Source of the DNA: Blautia sp.
Lineage (GTDB): Bacteria; Bacillota; Clostridia; Lachnospirales; Lachnospiraceae
Direction: 5' to 3'
NCBI GenBank assembly: GCA_023663685.1
Contig: JAMPHB010000010.1
Coordinates: forward strand, 1-36,997
Length of the DNA stretch: 36,997 nucleotides
This document shows, piece by piece, positions 2,751 to 14,467 of the stretch. The position numbers and the translations under genes are program-made. Every line of letters starts with the position of its first letter. Positions within the stretch are counted from its first letter, which is position 1. The notes under the pieces were generated by a model. The model was not told where the DNA came from. It saw nothing but the letters and a program-made list of their open reading frames with translations, and did not search any database.

Positions 2751-3155
2751 ATGTTAGAGGTAGGAATCAGGGGACATAAGGAACTCGTGGTCACGGACGA
2801 ACAGACGGCAAAGCACATGAACAGCGGGGCGATGCGGGTGTACGCGACGCCCTGCATGGTCGCGCTGATGGAGTACGCGGCTTTTGACAGCGTGCGCCCC
2901 ATGCTCGAGGAGGGCTGTGGGACAGTCGGAACGGCGTTAAATATCAGGCATGTGGCCTCGACGCCCGTGGGGATGAAGGTCTGCTGCGACTCGGAGCTTG
3001 TCAAAATCGACGGCCGTGCCCTGACCTTTTCGGTGAAGGTCTATGATGAAAAGGGCTTAATCGGCGAGGGGGAGCACGAACGTTTTATAATCTATGAGGA
3101 TAAATTCCAGGCAAAGACTGACGGGAAGCTGGAGAAGCAGGATGCTTTACGATAA
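2751..3155 (+). CDS. Hotdog-fold thioesterase, FlK-like family
   Basis: A 134-residue cytosolic protein resembling the fluoroacetyl-CoA thioesterase (FlK)-like hotdog family, which hydrolyses small acyl-CoA thioesters. The pattern fits the FlK triad: a Thr and Glu in ATPCMVALMEYAA (about T33 and E41) and a His in LNIRHVASTPVG (about H68), in the order and spacing expected from FlK Thr42/Glu50/His76. The C-terminal half gives the second hotdog strand block (LTFSVKVYDEKGLIGEGEHERFII). The start ATG has AAGGAGAG at good spacing. The end overlaps the next gene's start by 14 bp, indicating translational coupling. Most such proteins in gut Clostridia have no proven substrate; a housekeeping acyl-CoA clean-up role is an inference. 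Confidence 0.8.
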   Translation: MLEVGIRGHKELVVTDEQTAKHMNSGAMRVYATPCMVALMEYAAFDSVRPMLEEGCGTVGTALNIRHVASTPVGMKVCCDSELVKIDGRALTFSVKVYDEKGLIGEGEHERFIIYEDKFQAKTDGKLEKQDALR

Positions 3156-3771: not shown

Positions 3772-3839
3772 AAAAGGCATGAAAAAGTGAATTTTTCCTA
3801 TACAAGGGATTGCAGGTAGAGTATAATATGGAGCAGGAA

Positions 3840-4973
3840 ATGAACAAGTCGGTGACAAGGATTTATATAATGACCCACAAGGCGTTTGATGTGCCGGAGG
3901 ATGCGATGTATATTCCGGTATATGTAGGCAGCGCCGGCGCTTCTGCGGAGGAAGCGTCGGCTCTTTTCGGCTATACGAGGGACGACAGCGGGGATAATAT
4001 CTCCGGCCAGAACTGTTATTTCAGTGAGCTGACGGGCATGTACTGGGTGTGGAAAAACCAAAAAGACATAGAGAACGTGGGTATCTGTCACTACCGGAGA
4101 TATCTGCTCAATGCGCAGGGATATATGTTTACGGAGCCGGAGATTATATCTCTCTTAAAGGAGTATGATATACTCACGACGAAAAATCTGCAGCTCAACT
4201 TTCCCTACGCCGAGGGCTTTGCCTCCCATCACAAGCCCGTCTATCTGGAGGAGACCGGGAGGGTGCTCGCGGAGCGTTATCCTCTCTACTATGAGACCTT
4301 CCGGCGGCTGATACACGAAAAGCACACTTATTTCGGCAATATGCTGATCTGTCGAAAAGAGCTGTATGATGAGTACTGCGGGTGGCTTTTCGATATTCTC
4401 TTTGAGGTGCAGCGGCGGGTACCCGTGGTGGAAAGCGACAGCTATCACAGACGCATTTTCGGCTTTCTCTCGGAATTTCTGCAATATGTGTGGATTTCCA
4501 CTAAGCATTTGCGGGTGTGCGGGTGCATGGTCGGGATGCTGGGGGAAAAGGCGGAGGTCGGCGAGGTAAAGCGCCATCTTGCCCGTTTTTTTGCTGCCGG
4601 GGATTATGCCGGGGCAAAGGAATACTTTCTGGAGGCGAAAAGACAGCGGCCGGATCTTTTGATGGAGGCCTCTGATATTACAGGGGAGCTGCATCTGTGC
4701 ATGGAGGTGATTGCGATTGCGGGGCTTGAGCAGGAGCGCTACGGAAGGAATCTGCTGGACACTGTCCGGGATTTTAAAGAGCTTATGGCTTACTGTAATC
4801 AGCTGAACCGCTACGCCCTGCTGCAGATGGGGCAGGAGACAGGCACGAAAGAGGATGAGGAGCTAAAGCTCCGGGTGCAGGAAAAGGCGACGCCGGTGGC
4901 TGTGCAGACGGCGTGTGCGGTCATGCAGGCGGCTGGAAAGAAAACGATGGCAGGATATGACAGTAAGGACTAG
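3840..4973 (+). CDS. DUF4422 domain glycosyltransferase-like protein
   Basis: A 377-residue protein. Its first 230 residues look like the DUF4422 family, often found in capsule and exopolysaccharide loci and thought to be glycosyltransferases: RIYIMTHKAFDVPED at the N-terminus, then ISGQNCYFSELTGMYWVWKN and VGICHYRRYL, the hallmark block. YFGNMLICRKELYDEY and VPVVESDSYHRRIFGFLSE follow. The C-terminal 120 residues are helical and not recognised. Upstream in-frame starts exist (TTG at 3810, ATG at 3828), but GGAG six bases before the ATG at 3840 favours that codon. It stands alone, with no polysaccharide cluster around it. It is followed 16 bp later by the SufC-like gene. Acceptor and donor are unknown. 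Confidence 0.75.
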   Translation: MNKSVTRIYIMTHKAFDVPEDAMYIPVYVGSAGASAEEASALFGYTRDDSGDNISGQNCYFSELTGMYWVWKNQKDIENVGICHYRRYLLNAQGYMFTEPEIISLLKEYDILTTKNLQLNFPYAEGFASHHKPVYLEETGRVLAERYPLYYETFRRLIHEKHTYFGNMLICRKELYDEYCGWLFDILFEVQRRVPVVESDSYHRRIFGFLSEFLQYVWISTKHLRVCGCMVGMLGEKAEVGEVKRHLARFFAAGDYAGAKEYFLEAKRQRPDLLMEASDITGELHLCMEVIAIAGLEQERYGRNLLDTVRDFKELMAYCNQLNRYALLQMGQETGTKEDEELKLRVQEKATPVAVQTACAVMQAAGKKTMAGYDSKD

Positions 4974-4989: not shown

Positions 4990-5751
4990 ATGCTGGAACT
5001 AAAGAACATTAGCTTTCAGGCGGAGGATGAGAAGGAGATTTTAAAGGACGTGAGCCTTGTGATCGACGACCGTATTGTGGTGATCACCGGACCCAACGGC
5101 GGGGGTAAGTCTACGCTTGCAAAGGTGATTGCGGGCATTGTGAAGCCGACGGGGGGACAGCTCTTTCTTGACGGGGAGGATATCACGGCATACTCGGTCA
5201 CAGAGCGGGCAAAGGCGGGCATTGGACTTGCCTTTCAGCAGCCGGTGCGCTTCAAAGGGCTTACGGTGCGGGATCTGGTTACAATCGCGGCGGGACGGGA
5301 GCTCTCTTTAAATGAGGCCTGCGCTTATCTCTCGGAGGTGGGACTGTGCGCGAGGGATTACATTGACCGGGAGTTAAACGCCAGCCTTTCCGGCGGGGAG
5401 ATCAAGAGGATTGAGATTGCGACGATTCTGGCAAAAAATTCAAGGTTTTCGGTGTTCGACGAGCCGGAGGCGGGCATTGATCTGTGGAGCTTCCGAAGCC
5501 TGATCCGCGTCTTCGAAAAAATGCAGCATGAGAATCAGGGAACGATTCTCATTATCAGCCACCAGGAGCGGATTTTAAATATTGCGGACAAGATTATCTA
5601 TATCAAAGACGGCATGGTCGAGAAATACGGGACGAGACAAGAGGTGCTGCCGACGCTCATGGACACCTCGAAGGCGGGATGCGATGTGCTGCTGGACAAG
5701 CTGGAGAGCGATTCTTCAGCAGGGGCTGCCGGAAGGGAGAGTGTGCAATGA
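4990..5751 (+). CDS. SufC-like ABC ATPase of a minimal Fe-S assembly system
   Basis: A 253-residue soluble ABC ATPase. Walker A GPNGGGKST (about residues 34-42), Q-loop LAFQQPVRFKGLTV, signature SGGEIKR, Walker B with FDEPEAGID, and switch ISHQERIL are all intact. The FDEPEAGID and SGGEIKR variants and the tightly coupled SufB-like partner mark it as SufC-type rather than a transporter ATPase. The start ATG is preceded by AGGAGGT. The stop overlaps the next gene's ATG (ATGA), so the two products should be made together. No sufS, sufU or sufD follows; this matches the two-gene SUF-like minimal system (SmsC/SmsB) described in anaerobes. Assignment to that system is an inference from length and gene order. 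Confidence 0.82.
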   Translation: MLELKNISFQAEDEKEILKDVSLVIDDRIVVITGPNGGGKSTLAKVIAGIVKPTGGQLFLDGEDITAYSVTERAKAGIGLAFQQPVRFKGLTVRDLVTIAAGRELSLNEACAYLSEVGLCARDYIDRELNASLSGGEIKRIEIATILAKNSRFSVFDEPEAGIDLWSFRSLIRVFEKMQHENQGTILIISHQERILNIADKIIYIKDGMVEKYGTRQEVLPTLMDTSKAGCDVLLDKLESDSSAGAAGRESVQ

Positions 5752-6668
5752 TCGACGAGATAGGAAAGAATCTGTTAAAAGAGGTGGCGGAGCTGGACGC
5801 GCTTCCGGTGGGCGCTTACAATATAAGGGTGAACGGAGCCAGCAGCGAGCGCAATACGACGGCGAATATTGATATCGTGAGTAAGGCAGACAAGTCCGGC
5901 ATCGATATTATCATTAAGCCGGGGACGAAAAATGAGAGCGTGCACATACCGGTGGTGCTCTCCCAGAGCGGTCTTAAGGAGACGGTGTACAATGACTTTT
6001 ATGTGGGGGAGGACTGCGACGTGACGATTGTTGCCGGCTGTGGAATCCACAACTGCGGCAATGGGGACAGCTCCCACGACGGTCTGCATCGCTTTTTCGT
6101 CGGAAAAAACGCGAGGGTGCGCTATGTGGAAAAGCACTACGGCGAGGGGGAGGGCCGGGGAAAGCGGCTGATGAACCCCACCACAGAGGTGCATCTGGAG
6201 GAGGGAGCCAGCATGAAGCTGGAGGCGACCCAGATTTCCGGAATTGACGACACCCTGCGGAAAACGACCGCCACGCTGGCGGCAAATGCCCGGCTTGAGG
6301 TGCAGGAAAAGGTGCTGACGGACGGGGAGCAGAAGGCGGTCTCGGAGTTCGTGGCAGATCTAAACGGCGCGGGCAGCAGCTGCAACATTGTGAGCCGCAC
6401 AGTGGCGAAGGAGCACAGCGTACAGCATTTTGCCAGCACTCTGCGGGGAAACGCGCCCTGCAGCGGCCATACGGAGTGCGATTCCATCATTATGGACGAC
6501 GCGAAGGTATCCGCCAGCCCGAACTTAACGGCGGCGGACGTGGACGCCAGCCTCATTCACGAGGCGGCCATCGGCAAGATTGCCGGCGAGCAGCTTTTAA
6601 AGCTTATGACGCTGGGGCTGACAGAGGCTGAGGCGGAGGAGCGGATCATAAATGGATTTTTAAAGTGA
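5748..6668 (+). CDS. SufB/SufD-family Fe-S scaffold protein (SmsB-like)
   Basis: A 306-residue protein of the SufB/SufD beta-helix family. It lacks the long N-terminal region of SufB from complete suf operons (usually over 450 residues), so it is much shorter than canonical SufB. The conserved C-terminal core is seen: TARLEV-like strands, NIVSRTVAKEHSVQHFAS, NAPCSGHTECDSIIMDDAKVSASPNLTAADVDASLIHEAAIGKIAGEQLLKLMTLGLTEAEAEERIINGFL. The Cys in NAPCSGHTECD and the Glu of HEAAIGKI are candidates for cluster assembly. The ATG at 5748 overlaps the sufC-like stop and follows GGAAGGGAGA; a longer frame reaches back to 5679 but lies inside the partner gene. It probably forms a complex with the adjacent ATPase and builds Fe-S clusters. 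Confidence 0.8.
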   Translation: MIDEIGKNLLKEVAELDALPVGAYNIRVNGASSERNTTANIDIVSKADKSGIDIIIKPGTKNESVHIPVVLSQSGLKETVYNDFYVGEDCDVTIVAGCGIHNCGNGDSSHDGLHRFFVGKNARVRYVEKHYGEGEGRGKRLMNPTTEVHLEEGASMKLEATQISGIDDTLRKTTATLAANARLEVQEKVLTDGEQKAVSEFVADLNGAGSSCNIVSRTVAKEHSVQHFASTLRGNAPCSGHTECDSIIMDDAKVSASPNLTAADVDASLIHEAAIGKIAGEQLLKLMTLGLTEAEAEERIINGFLK

Positions 6669-6823
6669 ATATTAAAATACATCAATAAAATTGCATAAAT
6701 TTAATCATTCTATTATCTGCAATGGTGTGTTAAAATTTATCATAAATATTGATTTTATTTTATGTGCCTGTACAAAAAGCGGCAGATGGCTGCACCAGTG
6801 CAGGCGGAAAGAAGGAGGTAGTC
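6669..6823 (+). promoter_or_regulatory. AT-rich leader/control region of leuA
   Basis: An AT-rich intergenic stretch of 155 bp ahead of the LeuA-AraC gene. Visible elements: direct repeats CATAAAT at 6694 and 6741, inverted ATTGCA (6690) and TGCAAT (6718), and a GC-rich palindrome CTGCAC-CA-GTGCAG at 6790-6803. The GC palindrome could form a small RNA hairpin shortly before the ribosome site. No T-box, leucine-rich leader peptide or clear -35/-10 pair was found. The direct repeats could be operator half-sites for an AraC-type protein, but this is a guess. Confidence 0.35.
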
Positions 6824-6859
6824 ATGCCATGCATGACAAAAAAGGATGAAGAATTTTGA
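6824..6859 (+). CDS. 11-codon leader ORF overlapping the leuA start
   Basis: ATG at 6824 follows an excellent ribosome site (GAAGGAGGT) and opens a frame of eleven residues, MPCMTKKDEEF, ending at TGA 6857-6859. The leuA ATG (6846) lies inside it in another frame and has only AAAAAAGG directly abutting it, a poorly placed site. leuA's own frame has a TGA at 6834 and no start between it and 6846, so leuA cannot use the strong site directly. Coupled re-initiation is the simplest reading. The peptide has no leucine codons, so it is not a classical attenuator. Confidence 0.5.
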   Translation: MPCMTKKDEEF

Positions 6860-8840
6860 CAAATATGAGCGACAGTACTTTATGCCCCCGGTCTGCGGGT
6901 ATGACTGGGTGAAGAAGGATCACATCGAGAAACCGCCGGTCTGGTGCTCTGTGGATTTGCGGGACGGGAATCAGGCGCTGATCGAGCCCATGAGCCTGGA
7001 TGAGAAGCTCGAATTTTTCCAAATGCTGGTAGATATCGGCTTTAAGGAGATTGAGGTCGGCTTTCCGGCAGCCTCGGAGACGGAATTTATCTTTATGCGC
7101 ACGCTGATCGAGCGGGATATGATTCCGGACGATGTGACTGTTCAGGTGCTGACGCAGGCGAGGGAGCATATTATCCGAAAGACCTTTGAGGCGGTGAAGG
7201 GCGCGCCCCACGCGGTGGTGCATCTGTACAATTCCACCTCTGTGGCTCAGAGAGAGCAGGTATTTAAGAAAGATAAGGAGGAGATCAAACGGCTGGCAGT
7301 GGACGGCGCGAAGCTCCTTAAAAAGCTGGCGGACGAGACAGAGGGGGATTTCTCCTTTGAGTACAGCCCGGAGAGCTTCCACGGCACGGAGGTCGAGTAC
7401 GCGCTGTCTGTCTGCAACGCGGTGCTGGACGTCTGGCAGCCGTGTGACCATAAGTCGATCATCAATATCCCGGCCACAGTGGAGACCGCCATGCCCCATG
7501 TGTTTGCGACCCAGATTGAGTATATCAGCAAGAATTTAAAATACCGGGACAATGTCGTATTGAGCCTGCATCCCCACAACGACAGAGGCTGCGGCGTCTG
7601 CGACGCAGAGCTGGGGATTCTGGCCGGAGCCGACCGCATCGAGGGAACTCTCTTCGGCAACGGCGAGCGGACGGGAAATGTGGACATTGTGACCCTCGCG
7701 ATGAATATGTTCTCCTACGGCACAGATCCGGGGCTGGATTTTTCCAATATGCCCCATATCCGGGAGACCTATGAGAGACTTACAAGAATGCATGTGGGCG
7801 ACCGCACGCCCTATGCCGGAGATCTGGTGTTCACCGCCTTTTCCGGCTCCCACCAGGACGCGATTGCAAAGGGCATGGCATGGCGCGGGGAGAAGCATCT
7901 TAAGACATGGACGGTGCCCTATCTGCCGATTGACCCCGTGGACGTGGGCAGGACATACGACGCGGACGTGATCCGCATCAACAGCCAGTCCGGCAAGGGC
8001 GGCATCAGCTACATCTTAAAAGAGAATTTCTCCATCTCCATGCCCGAAAAGATGCGGGAGGAGGTAGGCTATGCGGTGAAGCAGGTCTCGGACGAGGAGC
8101 ATAAGGAGCTTTCACCCCAGTGGGTATACAATATCTTCGAGGAGAATTATGTGAACCGGACGCCCTATTTTACGGTGGATGAGTGCCACTTTAAGCAGAC
8201 CGACGGCATCATGGCGGAGGCGACCATCGCCTTTGGCGGAAAAAAGACCATTGTGGATGCAAACGGCAATGGACGGCTGGATGCGGTGAGCAATACCATC
8301 AAGCAGTTTTTCAGCATCAGCTATGAGCTCTCCACCTACGAGGAGCACGCGCTGTCCAACGGTTCCTCCTCCAGAGCAATCGCCTATGTGGGGATTACCT
8401 GCGACGGAAAGAATTACTGGGGAGTCGGCATGGACGAGGATATTATCAAGGCATCGATCCACGCGCTGACGGTGGCGGTCAACAAGCTTCCGCAGATTGA
8501 GACCAGCGAGGGGGCAAAGGACGAGAGACTGACCGCAATGCTTAACTTTATCCAGAACAATTACCAGGAGGTCACGCTGGAGAGCATGGCGGAGCATTTC
8601 CACCTCTCCGAGCCGTATATCTCCAAGTACATCAAGGATAAGTCCGGCAGGACCTTCGGCGAGCAGGTGACGAAGATCCGTATGAAGCGGGCAAAGACGC
8701 TCTTAAAGAACGGCAATATGACCGTGGAAAATATCGCCTGCTCGGTGGGGTATCCGAATGTGGAGCATTTTAACAGAACCTTTAAAAAAGCGTTTGACAT
8801 GACTCCGATCCAGTACCGCAACGAGAGCCGGGCGAAATGA
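6846..8840 (+). CDS. leuA: 2-isopropylmalate synthase fused to a C-terminal AraC-type HTH domain
   Basis: A 664-residue protein. Residues about 30-330 are the TIM-barrel acyltransferase that condenses acetyl-CoA with 2-oxoisovalerate, the first step of leucine synthesis: DLRDGNQAL, the metal-binding HPHND block and GNGERTGNVD are intact. About 438-547 form the LeuA allosteric (leucine-sensing) domain, with AEATIAFGGK and GVGMDEDIIKASIHALTVAVNKL. About 560-660 form an AraC/XylS double helix-turn-helix: LESMAEHFHLSEPYISKYIK, then ENIACSVGYPNVEHFNRTFKKAF and MTPIQYR. The enzyme part resembles the long LeuA2 type; the DNA-binding tail is additional. No leuB, leuC or leuD is adjacent; the neighbours are Fe-S assembly genes upstream and a surface protein 20 bp downstream. 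The frame is continuous across the junction, so the fusion is real in this sequence. Confidence 0.93.
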   Translation: MKNFDKYERQYFMPPVCGYDWVKKDHIEKPPVWCSVDLRDGNQALIEPMSLDEKLEFFQMLVDIGFKEIEVGFPAASETEFIFMRTLIERDMIPDDVTVQVLTQAREHIIRKTFEAVKGAPHAVVHLYNSTSVAQREQVFKKDKEEIKRLAVDGAKLLKKLADETEGDFSFEYSPESFHGTEVEYALSVCNAVLDVWQPCDHKSIINIPATVETAMPHVFATQIEYISKNLKYRDNVVLSLHPHNDRGCGVCDAELGILAGADRIEGTLFGNGERTGNVDIVTLAMNMFSYGTDPGLDFSNMPHIRETYERLTRMHVGDRTPYAGDLVFTAFSGSHQDAIAKGMAWRGEKHLKTWTVPYLPIDPVDVGRTYDADVIRINSQSGKGGISYILKENFSISMPEKMREEVGYAVKQVSDEEHKELSPQWVYNIFEENYVNRTPYFTVDECHFKQTDGIMAEATIAFGGKKTIVDANGNGRLDAVSNTIKQFFSISYELSTYEEHALSNGSSSRAIAYVGITCDGKNYWGVGMDEDIIKASIHALTVAVNKLPQIETSEGAKDERLTAMLNFIQNNYQEVTLESMAEHFHLSEPYISKYIKDKSGRTFGEQVTKIRMKRAKTLLKNGNMTVENIACSVGYPNVEHFNRTFKKAFDMTPIQYRNESRAK

Positions 8841-8860
8841 GATAAGGAGGATACATACAT

Positions 8861-10219
8861 ATGAAAAGATTTGTAAAAAGCTTTGGCGTGGCGGCGTTTT
8901 TCCTGCTGGCACTTTTGCTTTTCCGGACGGATGCAGAGGCGGCGACAGCACCGCATATCGTGGGGCAGGAAGAGGTCATTTATTTAGATGGCAAGGATAA
9001 AATCGCCGTGCTGGGAGATAACATTATATCTGTCACATATTCCTCGGATAAGAAAACGGTGGCGACTGTGAGTAAGGACGGCGTGGTCAAACCGAAGAAG
9101 AAGGGGAAGGCTACGATCCGGGCAAAGGTCACCTATAAGAAAAATGGAAAGAAGACGACCAAAACCCTCAAGTATCAGGTGCAGGTGCTGGGAAAGTCCA
9201 CGGAGTATTTTGTATACACCAAGACGAACCGCATCCTAAGGCTTAAGGACAAGGCAAAAAAGCTTGAGAGCCTGTATATCCCCGGATATAACGCGAAGGG
9301 GAAAATTACGGCAATGTACGGAAGCTCGCTGGCGTACAATGAGAATCTCAAGCACCTCTATGTTTCAGACAATCTCGAGACCTTTGTACCCCACATAGAG
9401 GATATTTATCCCCACAGCCTGATGCATTGTCCCAATTTAAAGAGCGTCCATCTGGGGAAGAATTACGGATATTTACAGTACATGTACAACTGTCCCTCGA
9501 TTGAGCACATCACAGTGGACGAGCGCAATAAGAATTATAAGGTCGTGGACGATGTGTATTTCAGTAAGGACGGAAAGAACCTCTGCTATTATCCTGCGGG
9601 GAAACGGAACACTTCCTATGTCATACCGGAGGGGACAGAGCGCGTGTATGGATACGCCTTTTACGGCGCGCGCTATCTGCAGAGCGTTACCCTGCCGGAG
9701 ACGGTGAAATCGCTTGGGGAAGGAGCTTTTTACGCAGCCAGCCTGCGGGAAGTCCATATGCCGGAGTATGCGGCCATCAATATGGAGGAGGGCTATGTTT
9801 TTGCAGAATGCACAAATTTAAAAAGCCTCAGCCTGCCGGAGGGCGTTACGAATATTTACCGCATGTGCTGTAATTGTACAGCACTCGAGACGGTAGAGCT
9901 TCCGGCCTCGTTTTCGGATTCCTGGTGGCTGTCGTCGGCGTTTACCGGCTGCAGCAGCCTGAAAAATATTCAGCTGAAAGAGGGGTGCAGCGCCTGCAGG
10001 GTGGTCGACGGCGTGGTCTTTTCCATGGACGGCAAAGAGCTTTACCTCTATCCCGCCGGAAAAACGGATGTTGCCAGTTATACTGTGCCTGACGGCACGG
10101 AGGTAATCTGGGAGTATGCCTTTTACGATGCGGCCTGTACGGAGGTGCGGATACCGGCCTCTGTCAAAATTGAAGATGATGCCTTCAGAAAGAATACAGA
10201 TATAAAAATAATACAATAA
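8861..10219 (+). CDS. Secreted BspA-type leucine-rich-repeat protein with bacterial Ig-like domain
   Basis: A 452-residue exported protein. A signal peptide (KRFVKSFGVAAFFLLALLLF, cleavage probably after AEA at about residue 27) is followed by a BIG2-like Ig domain (about 30-110: ISVTYSSDKKTVATVSKDGVVKPKKKGKATIRAKV). Then come LRR_5 (BspA-type) repeats to the C-terminus, with units such as LQSVTLPETVKSLGEGAFY and LKSLSLPEGVTNIY. Two copies of a VVDDVYFSKDGKNLCYYPAGK-like block (about residues 225 and 383) interrupt the repeats. No LPXTG or other anchor is seen, so it is either released or held non-covalently. The ribosome site AAGGAGG is good, and the gene follows leuA by 20 bp, suggesting co-transcription. 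A role in adhesion or surface recognition is typical for the family but not shown here. Confidence 0.85.
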   Translation: MKRFVKSFGVAAFFLLALLLFRTDAEAATAPHIVGQEEVIYLDGKDKIAVLGDNIISVTYSSDKKTVATVSKDGVVKPKKKGKATIRAKVTYKKNGKKTTKTLKYQVQVLGKSTEYFVYTKTNRILRLKDKAKKLESLYIPGYNAKGKITAMYGSSLAYNENLKHLYVSDNLETFVPHIEDIYPHSLMHCPNLKSVHLGKNYGYLQYMYNCPSIEHITVDERNKNYKVVDDVYFSKDGKNLCYYPAGKRNTSYVIPEGTERVYGYAFYGARYLQSVTLPETVKSLGEGAFYAASLREVHMPEYAAINMEEGYVFAECTNLKSLSLPEGVTNIYRMCCNCTALETVELPASFSDSWWLSSAFTGCSSLKNIQLKEGCSACRVVDGVVFSMDGKELYLYPAGKTDVASYTVPDGTEVIWEYAFYDAACTEVRIPASVKIEDDAFRKNTDIKIIQ

Positions 10220-11395: not shown

Positions 11396-11605
11396 ATGCC
11401 ACTTACTATGTCCCCGAAGGGAGAGCAGGTTGAAATCAAGAAGATAAGCGGCAGGGAGGAGGTTCGCAGGCATCTGGAGGAGCTCGGCTTCGTGGCGGGC
11501 AGCTTTGTCACGGTGGTCGCGGAGAATGCAGGCAGCATGATCGTCAATGTCAAGGGCGCGAGAATCGCCATTGGCAGGGAGACGGCGAACCGTATTTTCG
11601 TATAA
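11396..11605 (+). CDS. feoA: FeoA family protein (first copy)
   Basis: A 69-residue SH3-fold FeoA, an accessory cytosolic protein that acts with the FeoB ferrous iron permease. The sequence shows the usual pattern: KISGREEVRRHLEELGFVAGSFVTVVAENAGSMIVNVKGARIAIGRETANRI. An in-frame ATG at 11336 lies within the promoter's -10 palindrome and cannot be translated from that transcript; the ATG at 11396 follows AAGGAGGAGG and is chosen. Thirteen bases separate it from the second feoA. Confidence 0.88.
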   Translation: MPLTMSPKGEQVEIKKISGREEVRRHLEELGFVAGSFVTVVAENAGSMIVNVKGARIAIGRETANRIFV

Positions 11606-11618
11606 GGAGGAGAGACAA

Positions 11619-11837
11619 ATGACACTGAAGGAAGCGAGGGTGGGGCAGATCCTCACGGTGAAAAGGCTGACCGGGGAAGGTCCGGTGAAGAAGAGAATTA
11701 TGGATATGGGCATCACAAAGGGCGTGGAGCTTTATGTCCGCAAGGTTGCGCCGCTGGGGGATCCGGTGGAGGTGACGGTGCGCGGCTATGAGCTGTCCCT
11801 GCGCAAGGAGGATGCGGAGATGGTTCAGGTGGAGTAA
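11619..11837 (+). CDS. feoA: FeoA family protein (second copy)
   Basis: A 72-residue FeoA with TLKEARVGQILTVKRLTGEGPVKKRIMDMGITKGVELYVRKVAPLGDPVEVTVRGYELSLRKEDAEMVQV. The G-pro-VKKRIMDMGIT and GDPVEVTVRGYELSLR blocks are the FeoA signature, and this copy is closer to the typical family than the first. The start follows AAGGAGGAG. Twin feoA genes ahead of feoB are common in Clostridia; the two may contact different parts of FeoB. A terminator-like hairpin follows before feoB. Confidence 0.93.
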   Translation: MTLKEARVGQILTVKRLTGEGPVKKRIMDMGITKGVELYVRKVAPLGDPVEVTVRGYELSLRKEDAEMVQVE

Positions 11838-11840
11838 GGG

Positions 11841-11867
11841 GGATCTGCCGGCGGGCAGACCTTTTTT
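11841..11867 (+). terminator. Intra-operon terminator between feoA2 and feoB
   Basis: GG(A)TCTGCC (11841-11849) pairs with GGCAGACC (11854-11861) around a GGCG loop, with one bulged A, and is followed by six T. It lies directly after the feoA2 stop and 83 bp before feoB, so it may reduce feoB transcription relative to feoA. Confidence 0.7.
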
Positions 11868-11877
11868 CGGGATACGG

Positions 11878-11893
11878 GTTAGCGAAAGCTAAC
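11878..11893. promoter_or_regulatory. Second TTAG-N6-CTAA palindrome / GNRA hairpin upstream of feoB
   Basis: GTTAGC-GAAA-GCTAAC. As DNA it contains TTAG-N6-CTAA (11879-11892), the same arms and spacing as the palindrome over the feo -10 box. As RNA it would be a 6-bp stem capped by a GAAA tetraloop. Either an iron-box-like operator or an mRNA hairpin is possible; no convincing promoter is seen with it. Confidence 0.4.
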
Positions 11894-11950
11894 AAATGAA
11901 AGCAAGAACGAACCATGGATAGTAACAACAAATAAAAAAGGAGAGTAGAG

Positions 11951-14467
11951 ATGTCATTAAAAATTGCACTCGCAGGAAATCCAAACTGCGGTAAGACCAC
12001 ATTATTTAATGCACTGACCGGCTCGAACCAGTATGTGGGAAACTGGCCGGGAGTGACTGTCGAGAAAAAGGAAGGAAAGCTTAAAAGCAACAAGGACGTG
12101 GTGATTTCCGACCTTCCGGGAATTTATTCCCTTTCCCCCTACACGCTGGAGGAAGTGGTGGCAAGGAATTATCTGATCGGTGAGAAGCCTGACGCCATCA
12201 TCAATATCGTGGACGGAACGAACATTGAGCGCAGCCTCTATCTGACCACACAGATTATTGAGCTGGGATTTCCGGTGGTTCTGGCGGTCAATATGATGGA
12301 TCTTGTGACTAAGAGCGGAGACAAGATTAACATTTACGCGCTTGGTGAGAAGCTGGGCTGTGAGGTCGTGGAGATTTCTGCACTCAAAGGAACAGGCGTG
12401 ACAAAGGTGGCGGAGAAGGCCGTGGAGGCGGCGCAGGCAAAGAAGGCGGTGGTGCGCGTACATAAGTTTGACGACGCTGTGGAGTCTGCCATCGCCAAAG
12501 TGGAGGATAAGCTGGGCGACAGCGTGGCCGAGAGCCAGAAGCGTTTCTTTGCAATCAAGCTATTGGAGCGTGACTCTAAGATTTTGGAGCAGATAAAGGC
12601 CGCGCCGGATGTGTCCGCGGAGATTGGGGAGCTGGAGGAGCATTTCGACGACGATACTGAGAGTATCATCACGAACGAGCGTTACAGCTATATCTCTTCG
12701 ATCATAGGCGCCTGCGTGAAAAAGTCGTCGAACAAGGAAAAACTCACCATTTCCGATAAGATTGACAAGATTGTGACAAACCGGATTCTGGCGCTTCCGA
12801 TTTTTGCGGTTGTGATGTGGCTGGTGTATTTTATCTCCATGTCAACGATTGGAGCGGCGGCTACAGACTGGACGAACGACAATCTCTTCGGGGACGGCTT
12901 CCATCTGCTGGGCATCGGCTCCGGCGCTTACGGGGAGGCGGCCGATGAGTTCGCAGAGGCGGAGACGGTCGTGAACGGCTTTTTGTCCTATGCCGGGGAG
13001 CAGGGCATGGATGTAGAGAACATAGAGGCGGCTTTGGATGCAGAGTCCGAGGATTTCGATACGGCGGCGGCAAACGCAGCTGTTTCAGACCTTGTGGCGC
13101 TCTTTGACGAGAGTTCCACCGCAAACTATCTGGTGGAGGACGAGGAGACCCTGGAGACGACCGGGGAATCTGCGGGCTACGCGGATCTGACAGCGGCTGC
13201 GGCTGTGTATGCGGACTATGACTGTGCGGCTCCCGACCCTGCGGATTACGGCGTGTGGGTGCCGGGAATCCCGGTTCTTGTGGAGTCAGGATTAAATGCA
13301 ATCCACTGTGCAGACTGGCTTTCGGGGCTGATTCTTGACGGAATCGTGGCAGGAGTTGGCGCGGTGCTGGGCTTTGTACCCCAGATGCTGGTGCTGTTCA
13401 TTCTGCTGGCTTTCTTAGAGTACTGTGGTTATATGGCGAGAATTGCCTTTATCTTAGACCGTGTATTCCGCAAATTTGGCCTTTCCGGAAAGTCCTTTAT
13501 CCCGATGCTGGTGGGTATGGGCTGCGGTGTGCCGGGCGTTATGGCCAGCCGTACCATTGAGAGCGAGAAGGATCGCCGCATGACGATTATGACGACCACC
13601 TTTATTCCCTGCGGGGCAAAGGTTCCCTTTATTGCCATGATTGCGGGCGCAATCTTTGGCGGCTCATCCCTTGTGGCGACCAGCGCTTATTTTGTAGGAA
13701 TCATCGCAATTATTTGTTCGGGAATTATGTTAAAAAAGACAAGAATGTTCGCAGGAGATCCGGCGCCCTTCGTTATGGAGCTCCCGGCTTACCACTGGCC
13801 AAAGGTCAGCTCAGTGCTTCGCAGCATGTGGGAGAGAGGCTGGTCCTTCATCAAGAAGGCGGGCACGATCATTCTTCTTTCGACGATTGTGATCTGGTTT
13901 ACGACCTACTTTGGCTTTGTGGACGGAAGCTTCACGATGCTGACAGAGGATCAGATTGATTCCAGCATCCTTGCGGCGATTGGCAATGCCATTGCATGGA
14001 TTTTTATTCCGCAGGGCTGGGGAAACTGGCAGGCGACGGTTGCCTCCATTACCGGACTTGTGGCAAAGGAAAATATTGTGGGAACCATGGGAATTCTGTA
14101 CGGCGGCGGGGACGCTACCGTATGGCAGGCACTGGGGGCGGCATTTACGACAGCCAGCGGATATTCCTTCCTCGTATTTAACCTTCTGTGTGCTCCCTGC
14201 TTTGCGGCTATGGGCGCGATCAAGCGGGAGATGAACAACGTGAAATGGTTCTGGTTTGCCATCGGCTATCAGTGCGGACTTGCGTATCTGGCGGCTCTCG
14301 TGGTATACCGTATCGGCGGACTGTTCACCGGAGCGTGCGGTTTTGGCATCTGGACGGTGGTAGCAATCGCGATTCTCGTATTGTTCGTCTACATGCTCTT
14401 CCGCAGGCCAAAGGCGCGGGAGAGCGCAAAGGGCTATGCCGGTCTTGGGAAAGCCATGAATGCATAA
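11951..14467 (+). CDS. feoB: Ferrous iron transport protein FeoB with enlarged acidic loop
   Basis: An 838-residue inner-membrane Fe2+ permease. The N-terminal G domain has G1 GNPNCGKTT (about 9-17), switch NWPGVTVEKKEG, G3 DLPGIYSLSPYTLEE and G4 NMMD, followed by a helical GDI-like region to about 275. The membrane part begins at about 276 (RILALPIFAVVMWLVYFIS). Gate motifs LVGMGCGVPGVMASR and the second Gate block FNLLCAPCFAAMGAIKREM are present. Between the first and second membrane segments, about residues 305-440 form a long, very acidic, Ala-rich insert (for example ALDAESEDFDTAAANAA), clearly longer than in standard FeoB. The start follows AAAGGAGAG. A terminator follows the stop. No feoC or Cys-rich FeoB partner is seen. 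Confidence 0.96.
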   Translation: MSLKIALAGNPNCGKTTLFNALTGSNQYVGNWPGVTVEKKEGKLKSNKDVVISDLPGIYSLSPYTLEEVVARNYLIGEKPDAIINIVDGTNIERSLYLTTQIIELGFPVVLAVNMMDLVTKSGDKINIYALGEKLGCEVVEISALKGTGVTKVAEKAVEAAQAKKAVVRVHKFDDAVESAIAKVEDKLGDSVAESQKRFFAIKLLERDSKILEQIKAAPDVSAEIGELEEHFDDDTESIITNERYSYISSIIGACVKKSSNKEKLTISDKIDKIVTNRILALPIFAVVMWLVYFISMSTIGAAATDWTNDNLFGDGFHLLGIGSGAYGEAADEFAEAETVVNGFLSYAGEQGMDVENIEAALDAESEDFDTAAANAAVSDLVALFDESSTANYLVEDEETLETTGESAGYADLTAAAAVYADYDCAAPDPADYGVWVPGIPVLVESGLNAIHCADWLSGLILDGIVAGVGAVLGFVPQMLVLFILLAFLEYCGYMARIAFILDRVFRKFGLSGKSFIPMLVGMGCGVPGVMASRTIESEKDRRMTIMTTTFIPCGAKVPFIAMIAGAIFGGSSLVATSAYFVGIIAIICSGIMLKKTRMFAGDPAPFVMELPAYHWPKVSSVLRSMWERGWSFIKKAGTIILLSTIVIWFTTYFGFVDGSFTMLTEDQIDSSILAAIGNAIAWIFIPQGWGNWQATVASITGLVAKENIVGTMGILYGGGDATVWQALGAAFTTASGYSFLVFNLLCAPCFAAMGAIKREMNNVKWFWFAIGYQCGLAYLAALVVYRIGGLFTGACGFGIWTVVAIAILVLFVYMLFRRPKARESAKGYAGLGKAMNA

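Follow-up and report, generated by a model that had tools for sequence, protein, structure and literature searches.

We describe a 2-isopropylmalate synthase (LeuA) that carries an AraC-type helix-turn-helix (HTH) at its C-terminus and that we consider, with a probability of roughly three in four, to be a dedicated AraC-type regulator of its own gene, with leucine probably acting as the switch. The DNA analyzed, referred to here as the window, is the whole stretch of 36,997 nucleotides from Blautia sp. (Lachnospiraceae; GCA_023663685.1, contig JAMPHB010000010.1, positions 1 to 36,997, forward strand). Comparison of sequences among genomes provided the architecture of the protein, a predicted operator, the co-occurrence of the operator with the HTH, its spacing from the promoter and an apparently near-single target. 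The features of the gene and its upstream region are collected in Table 1.

Table 1. Features of the leuA-HTH gene and of its upstream region in the window
Feature	Position	Strand	Details
Operator site 1 (candidate)	6669..6708	+	40-mer, 40.5 bits; direct half-sites TTAAAATACATCA and ATAAATTTAATCA with a spacing of 23 bp; about 20 bp separate its end from the extended -10
Operator site 2 (candidate)	6726..6765	-	Inverted reading 20.9 bits, direct reading (at 6727) 8.5 bits; overlaps the -10 and the start expected near 6743
Extended -10, TGTTAAAAT	6728..6736	+	25 bp past the 34-mer core of site 1
Shine-Dalgarno-like AAGGAGGT	6812..6819	+	By sequence
11-codon leader frame MPCMTKKDEEF	6824..6859	+	Overlaps the leuA start; no leucine codons
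leuA-HTH fusion gene	6846..8840	+	664 aa; ATG at 6846; in-frame TGA at 6834-6836 just 5'
Catalytic barrel, HMGL-like, residues 32-307	6939..7766	+	Pfam; GNGERTG 271-277, HPH 242-244, D40
IPMS_D2 linker subdomain, residues 326-392	7821..8021	+	Pfam; holds Y359, equivalent to M. tuberculosis LeuA Y410 (available excerpts of PMC2704214)
LeuA_dimer, leucine-type regulatory/dimerisation domain, residues 423-548	8112..8489	+	Pfam, E 4.9e-24
AraC-type double HTH, residues about 560-660	8523..8825	+	Pfam HTH_18 581-659, HTH_AraC 621-659

The frame of the fusion gene comprises 664 codons and has zero internal stops by ORF reading, and Pfam located all of the domains that the initial annotation had read in it, so that the claim of a single frame joining LeuA to an AraC-type HTH holds. 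The HMGL-like domain was matched with an E value of 1.4e-69, and the LeuA part as a whole (residues 5-547) scored 789.4 bits against the NCBIfam model for type-2 2-isopropylmalate synthase (NF002991), which has a cut-off of 455. The same annotation had placed the HTH directly behind the leucine-type regulatory domain and had named the lack of an HTH_18 match as a reason to abandon the idea; a complete double HTH is indeed predicted to follow LeuA_dimer, and HTH_18 was found at residues 581-659 with an E value of 2.7e-20 and 72.9 bits against a gathering cut-off of 33.6, family positions 1-79 of 80 being matched. Among solved structures, the closest chains belong to M. tuberculosis LeuA over residues 27-516 and 520-548 and to AraC-type domains over the tail. 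The fusion protein is the sole LeuA match at E <= 0.001 in the source genome (2.32 Mb, 31 contigs, 82% complete), and nine other matches to it at this threshold cover the HTH part only. Directly 5' of leuA the window encodes a SufC-like ABC ATPase and a SufBD-core protein (4990-6668, Pfam), and directly 3' an exported protein with BspA-type leucine-rich repeats and a Big_2 domain (8861-10219). Elsewhere it holds a fluoroacetyl-CoA thioesterase-like protein (FlK, E 3.2e-39; 2751-3155), a DUF4422 protein (3810-4973) and two FeoA genes followed by an 838-aa FeoB-like frame (11396-14467; FeoB named by sequence).

We used the residues given for the M. tuberculosis and yeast enzymes in the available excerpts of PMC2704214 to compare the active site and the leucine pocket. 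The catalytic residues listed there for M. tuberculosis LeuA (D81, H285, H287, GxGERxG and H379) correspond in our alignment to D40, H242, H244, GNGERTG and H336, all of which are present and invariant in the 49 fused homologues, out of 70 read, that make up alignment A1. Among the listed leucine-binding and feedback residues, G531, G533, L535, Y554, A558, A567 and Y410 are kept (as G474, G476, L478, Y498, A502, A511 and Y359) and A536, V551 and A565 are changed (to D479, L495 and S509); G474, G476, Y498, S509 and A511 are invariant in the 49 fusions. Because the leucine-pocket residues are largely kept, the fusion protein is likely to sense leucine. The same excerpts describe a slow structural change that leucine causes in M. 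tuberculosis LeuA and that is transmitted through the linker.

The fusion is genuine and old. The domain search and the count of homologues that the initial annotation had proposed confirmed five Pfam families and found the same architecture in at least 89 of the 397 genomes of the window's family, with matches of 65-100% identity that begin at the start and reach at least residue 659; 363 of the 397 have a LeuA match at E <= 1e-60. Within the window's genus the full fusion was present in 47 of 60 genomes, and one relative (L321) encodes a fusion protein 99% identical to that of the window. The span of these matches to residue 659 or beyond and the 99% identical relative rule out an assembly error. 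An additional fusion in G163 is interrupted by the contig end, and in two genomes, G061 (L078) and G078 (L084), the HTH is a separate frame directly downstream of LeuA with the operator described below kept; these natural split versions had first looked like HTH-less loci with the motif. A sample of the order (246 genomes) contained 13 full fusions, every one in the window's family, and no fusion among 106 LeuA matches from other families, and among 299 genomes sampled from the phylum, searched at E <= 1e-190, one of another family, G959 (L349), had the fusion at 71% identity. Named carriers include Roseburia inulinivorans DSM 16841, Lachnobacterium bovis DSM 14045 and Eubacterium ramulus. The named fusion records are mostly Lachnospiraceae and some MAG titles give other groups, probably wrongly; the record nearest the window, L218, which matches it at 99% over the 140 C-terminal residues, bears the title Muribaculaceae, which is probably wrong.

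All five Pfam families were matched (E <= 0.001) in 49 of 49 fused homologues of alignment A1, and the positions invariant in all of them include, besides the catalytic residues, G635-Y636, E640, F642, R644, F646 and P654 of the second HTH. Omega was 0.004-0.033 for the HTH, similar to the 0.011-0.055 of the enzyme part, in six close pairs, these being what remained of 13 pairs after 7 gave no HTH value (dS saturated), with several of the six near saturation and the misaligned L001/L009 left out. By these estimates purifying selection maintains the HTH in the measurable pairs.

An unsupervised EM search of 69 regions upstream of fused leuA genes found the motif ATATTAAAATAnATCAATAAAAnTGATTAAATTT, which is AT-rich and partly palindromic. 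The predicted operator consists of two direct half-sites, TTAAAAnnnATCA, with a spacing of 23 bp, and its extended form, a 40-mer, terminates in AATCAT or NTCACT. We scanned 1 kb of upstream DNA with a cut of 14 bits and found the motif at 70 of 73 HTH-bearing loci versus 0 of 56 HTH-less LeuA loci (0/36, and 0/20 in a second batch), the best score among the latter being 6.0 bits. Of these 70 sites, 60 served to train the matrix; the ten sites outside the training all stand upstream of T-boxes. The three misses are L011, L043 and L049, the last of which has just 47 bp of upstream DNA. An HMM search of the downstream DNA revealed no split-off HTH at any of the 56 HTH-less loci. Also outside the training was a named set, which consists of the 80 best matches to the C-terminus of the window's fusion protein minus duplicates and cut loci and is related to the first set; among its 64 non-duplicate fused loci, each having 400 bp or more of DNA upstream, 58 carry the motif (the HTH-bearing loci without it being L230, L244, L245, L263, L279 and L289). 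In a genus set that overlaps the named set, the motif was present at 23 of the 25 loci scored.

The initial annotation had noted direct repeats near 6694 and 6741 and had proposed the AT-rich leader as an autoregulatory target. The repeats turned out to belong to an operator present in two copies (6672-6705 and 6730-6763; 34 nt, 71% identical, 58 bp apart), and the leader does hold a conserved operator-promoter that tracks the HTH (70/73 versus 0/56) and would be the target of autoregulation. The opposite strand scored above 10 bits at 33 of 109 loci, with the HTH-less loci among those listed at 7.2 bits or less; we read these scores, after the fact, as inverted second sites. Residue 589 of the recognition helix co-varied strongly in raw counts with the right half-site (114 concordant, 4 discordant and 14 unclassed of 132), yet this is a clade effect: the correlation was rejected because it reflects only 3-4 tree changes and independent pairs give it no support.

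The position of the promoter relative to site 1 is nearly fixed. An extended -10 (TGnTAnnnT) begins exactly 25 bp past the 34-mer in 50 of 60 promoters and 22-28 bp past it in 57 of 60, the base-shuffle control giving a mean of 0.8 and a maximum of 5, and 45 of the 58 promoters in the named set have a distance of 24-26 bp. A consensus scanner found no + strand promoter of the sigma-70 type in 6500-8950. Matches to the -35 at 5-6 of 6 positions occurred in 2 of 60 motif promoters versus 3 of 60 at a control position; as such matches are equally rare in the control, the lack of a -35 means here the absence of enrichment for TTGACA. Matches at 4 of 6 positions were commoner in the motif promoters (18 versus 8 in the control). 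For the T-box promoters of HTH-less genes, the best promoter in 75 bp has a -35 of 5-6 of 6 in 17 of 32 cases, a figure from a freer search that is not like-for-like with that of the motif promoters.

A second operator was detected at p <= 0.01 in 79 of 141 promoters, in either orientation and mainly 56-59 or 72-75 bp from the first, and control stretches upstream exceeded 5 bits in 1 and 2 of 139. In L321 both sites are kept though the spacer is partly changed. Reading site 2 as a plain direct repeat was superseded, since both the window and many other promoters give higher scores when the site is read as inverted. Two lineages without site 1 (L011/L337 and L230/L335) have, by eye, TTGACT 17 bp before the -10, which favors activation at site 1, and L230/L335 retains site 2 (also by eye). 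In the genus relatives L011 (1437-1481) and L337 the operator is degenerate or gone, and the -35/-10 promoter carries the inverted repeat TTAGTGTTA-gca-TAACACTAA, imperfect in L337, which is perhaps the site of another repressor. Further downstream, the good Shine-Dalgarno sequence serves the leader frame, which is kept in L321, and leuA has no well-placed one; this arrangement suggests that the leader frame may be translationally coupled to leuA.

To what extent the operator occurs elsewhere was examined in 48 whole genomes (46 chosen as fused, two split). With up to 3 mismatches allowed there were 43 matches, comprising 40 in the leuA promoter, 2 second sites there and 1 before leuB-ilvD in G341 (L128 3977-4016), the only clear second target. 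The reversed pattern, used as a control, gave 0 matches over the 48 genomes, and eight of them gave no match to the motif at this level. A wider leucine regulon was rejected: in 30 fused genomes the ilvC upstream regions were without the motif, and upstream of leuB it was confined to two genomes of one genus, G341 at 27.5 bits and, as a weak site, G017 at 12.3 bits; in that genus a search of 5 genomes at <=3 mismatches located the leuB site only in G341. No T-box was found before leuB at the gathering score in 20 loci. The target of the predicted operator seems to be almost only its own promoter, plus one leuB site in one genome.

Branched-chain amino acid synthesis in Clostridia has been reported to be under T-box control (available excerpts of PMC2494555). 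We found a T-box before 32 of 37 scanned HTH-less leuA genes (out of the 56 loci) versus 10 of 64 HTH-bearing ones, nine of the 64 having been picked for apparent motif absence. All 10 of the HTH-bearing loci with a T-box have the motif upstream of it, so that the T-box lies between the motif promoter and the gene. Mutual exclusion of motif and T-box was apparent at 350-400 bp upstream and was ruled out at 1 kb, both being present in these 10 loci. The window contains no T-box (RF00230) at the gathering score. A Clostridiales-1 RNA was seen between T-box and leuA in two HTH-less loci (L081 2439-2597, L086 2339-2502), and a TwoAYGGAY RNA in a third (L298 50-212).

A quickly built tree of 109 rows, based on the LeuA part, requires 7 changes of the HTH and 9 of the motif. 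Five of five independent and well-supported HTH changes go with the motif and 0 go the opposite way, giving a p of 0.0625, where five pairs cannot reach p 0.05. A tree of 129 rows has 8 HTH changes and 10 motif changes, with 4.8 the same, 0 opposite and 0.2 showing no difference. The likely order of events, in a direction that we infer, is that a T-box gene gained HTH and operator and that losses came later. In G959 the fused leuA is accompanied by the operator at 47.7 bits and, by sequence, a T-box too; the presence of gene and operator together suggests that the module may have been horizontally transferred whole, the alternative being a binning error.

DNA binding, the ligand and the sign of control are inferred from these comparisons, and we propose that the two HTH pairs of a LeuA dimer would dock on the half-sites of site 1, where the HTH would aid RNA polymerase at an extended -10 promoter without a good -35, as an activator resembling AraC class II. 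Binding at site 2, over the -10 and the start, would lead to repression. Leucine in the LeuA_dimer domain would alter the relation of the two HTH domains of the dimer, so that leuA would be turned down, and the same leucine would inhibit the enzyme; how active the first committed enzyme is and how much of it is made would in this way be set by one protein. We also put forward, tentatively, a flux-reading form of this enzyme-regulator: since a single dimer unites barrel, leucine domain and HTH, occupancy of the promoter might report both leucine and the catalytic state, substrate-bound or idle, site 1 serving for activation and site 2 for repression. If this were true, the result would be a feedback module of one protein and one promoter that took the place of the T-box, or was added to it, in part of one family and that is movable as a unit between lineages.

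Several other explanations have to be weighed against regulation by leucine through the fused HTH. The fusion could bind its own promoter as a plain repressor or activator tuned by 2-ketoisovalerate, acetyl-CoA, 2-isopropylmalate or its own concentration alone, which we regard as possible but somewhat unlikely. AraC-type proteins can act in either direction, every promoter result fits any ligand, and with an intact catalytic site substrate occupancy could be sensed as well; on the other hand, LeuA_dimer is the domain that adjoins the HTH, and within it G474, G476, Y498, S509 and A511, the equivalents of leucine-pocket residues named in the excerpts, are invariant in 49 sequences. It is improbable that the motif is owned by a separate regulator of leucine synthesis, with the HTH on LeuA a passenger or acting elsewhere. 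Such a regulator would account for the few fused genes without the motif, and the link between HTH and motif is one of sequence, but the motif was found at 0 of 56 HTH-less loci, it accompanies all five supported HTH changes, it stands before neither ilvC nor, except in one genus, leuB in the 30 fused genomes, and it seems to have travelled with the gene to another family (G959).

We give still less credence to the AT-rich leader being an RNA control element, attenuator or riboswitch-like, with no protein operator. T-boxes control many relatives, and in some (L028, L032) site 1 overlaps a hairpin and T's, which are probably the end of the preceding gene; however, the conserved extended -10 follows site 1, which is thus outside the transcript, many copies of the motif have no such hairpin, no Rfam family matches the leader of the window and its 11-codon frame is without a leucine codon. 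A draft assembly (82% complete, 31 contigs) and a separate HTH frame in two relatives might suggest that the two parts were joined recently by accident, or through faulty assembly, and without function, an explanation whose probability is negligible, since it is refuted by the survey, in which at least 89 of 397 genomes, single-contig assemblies included, have the full fusion, and is also opposed by the purifying selection on the HTH in six measurable pairs.

Few enzymes double as DNA-binding regulators of their own pathway. None of the open-licence papers listed in our searches describes a LeuA-AraC fusion or its combination with such an operator, and the LeuA-HTH architecture may already be in domain databases. 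The protein is present in cultured gut bacteria (Roseburia inulinivorans, Lachnobacterium bovis), and its predicted operator is precise enough for a direct gel shift. Relatives without domain and operator, mostly with a T-box, offer a natural series for the passage from RNA-based to protein-based control, and the upstream region is a self-contained, leucine-responsive candidate promoter for anaerobes.

The fusion has all enzyme domains in common with type-2 LeuA (NF002991; PDB 1sr9, 3fig), and most of the catalytic and regulatory residues listed in the available excerpts are kept; it differs from M. tuberculosis LeuA by an extra 110-residue AraC-type HTH tail, the solved chain stopping where the tail starts. 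As in AraC/XylS proteins (HTH_18), a complete double HTH is C-terminal to a small-molecule domain, and the candidate sites, defined by sequence, are direct half-sites adjoining the -35 region and a second site over the promoter; unlike in those proteins, the sensor is a whole biosynthetic enzyme and no cupin or stand-alone sensor, and the half-site spacing is 23 bp. Ada-type proteins also combine an AraC-type HTH and an enzyme in one chain, but there the HTH is fused to a methyltransferase, the response is to DNA alkylation, and no amino-acid allosteric domain precedes the HTH. T-box control of leuA concerns the same gene and a leucine-related signal, but through an RNA element that reads tRNA charging. 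The trigger enzymes PutA, with a ribbon-helix-helix fold, and BirA, with a winged HTH, likewise have an enzyme and a DNA-binding domain in one chain, and the fusion has a candidate target in its own promoter. In the available excerpts of PMC6978683, PutA and BirA are pathway enzymes that double as DNA-binding regulators of pathway genes and are described as repressors, whereas for LeuA-HTH activation is likely. Neither of the two is a LeuA. LeuA-HTH would represent a trigger enzyme built from AraC-family parts.
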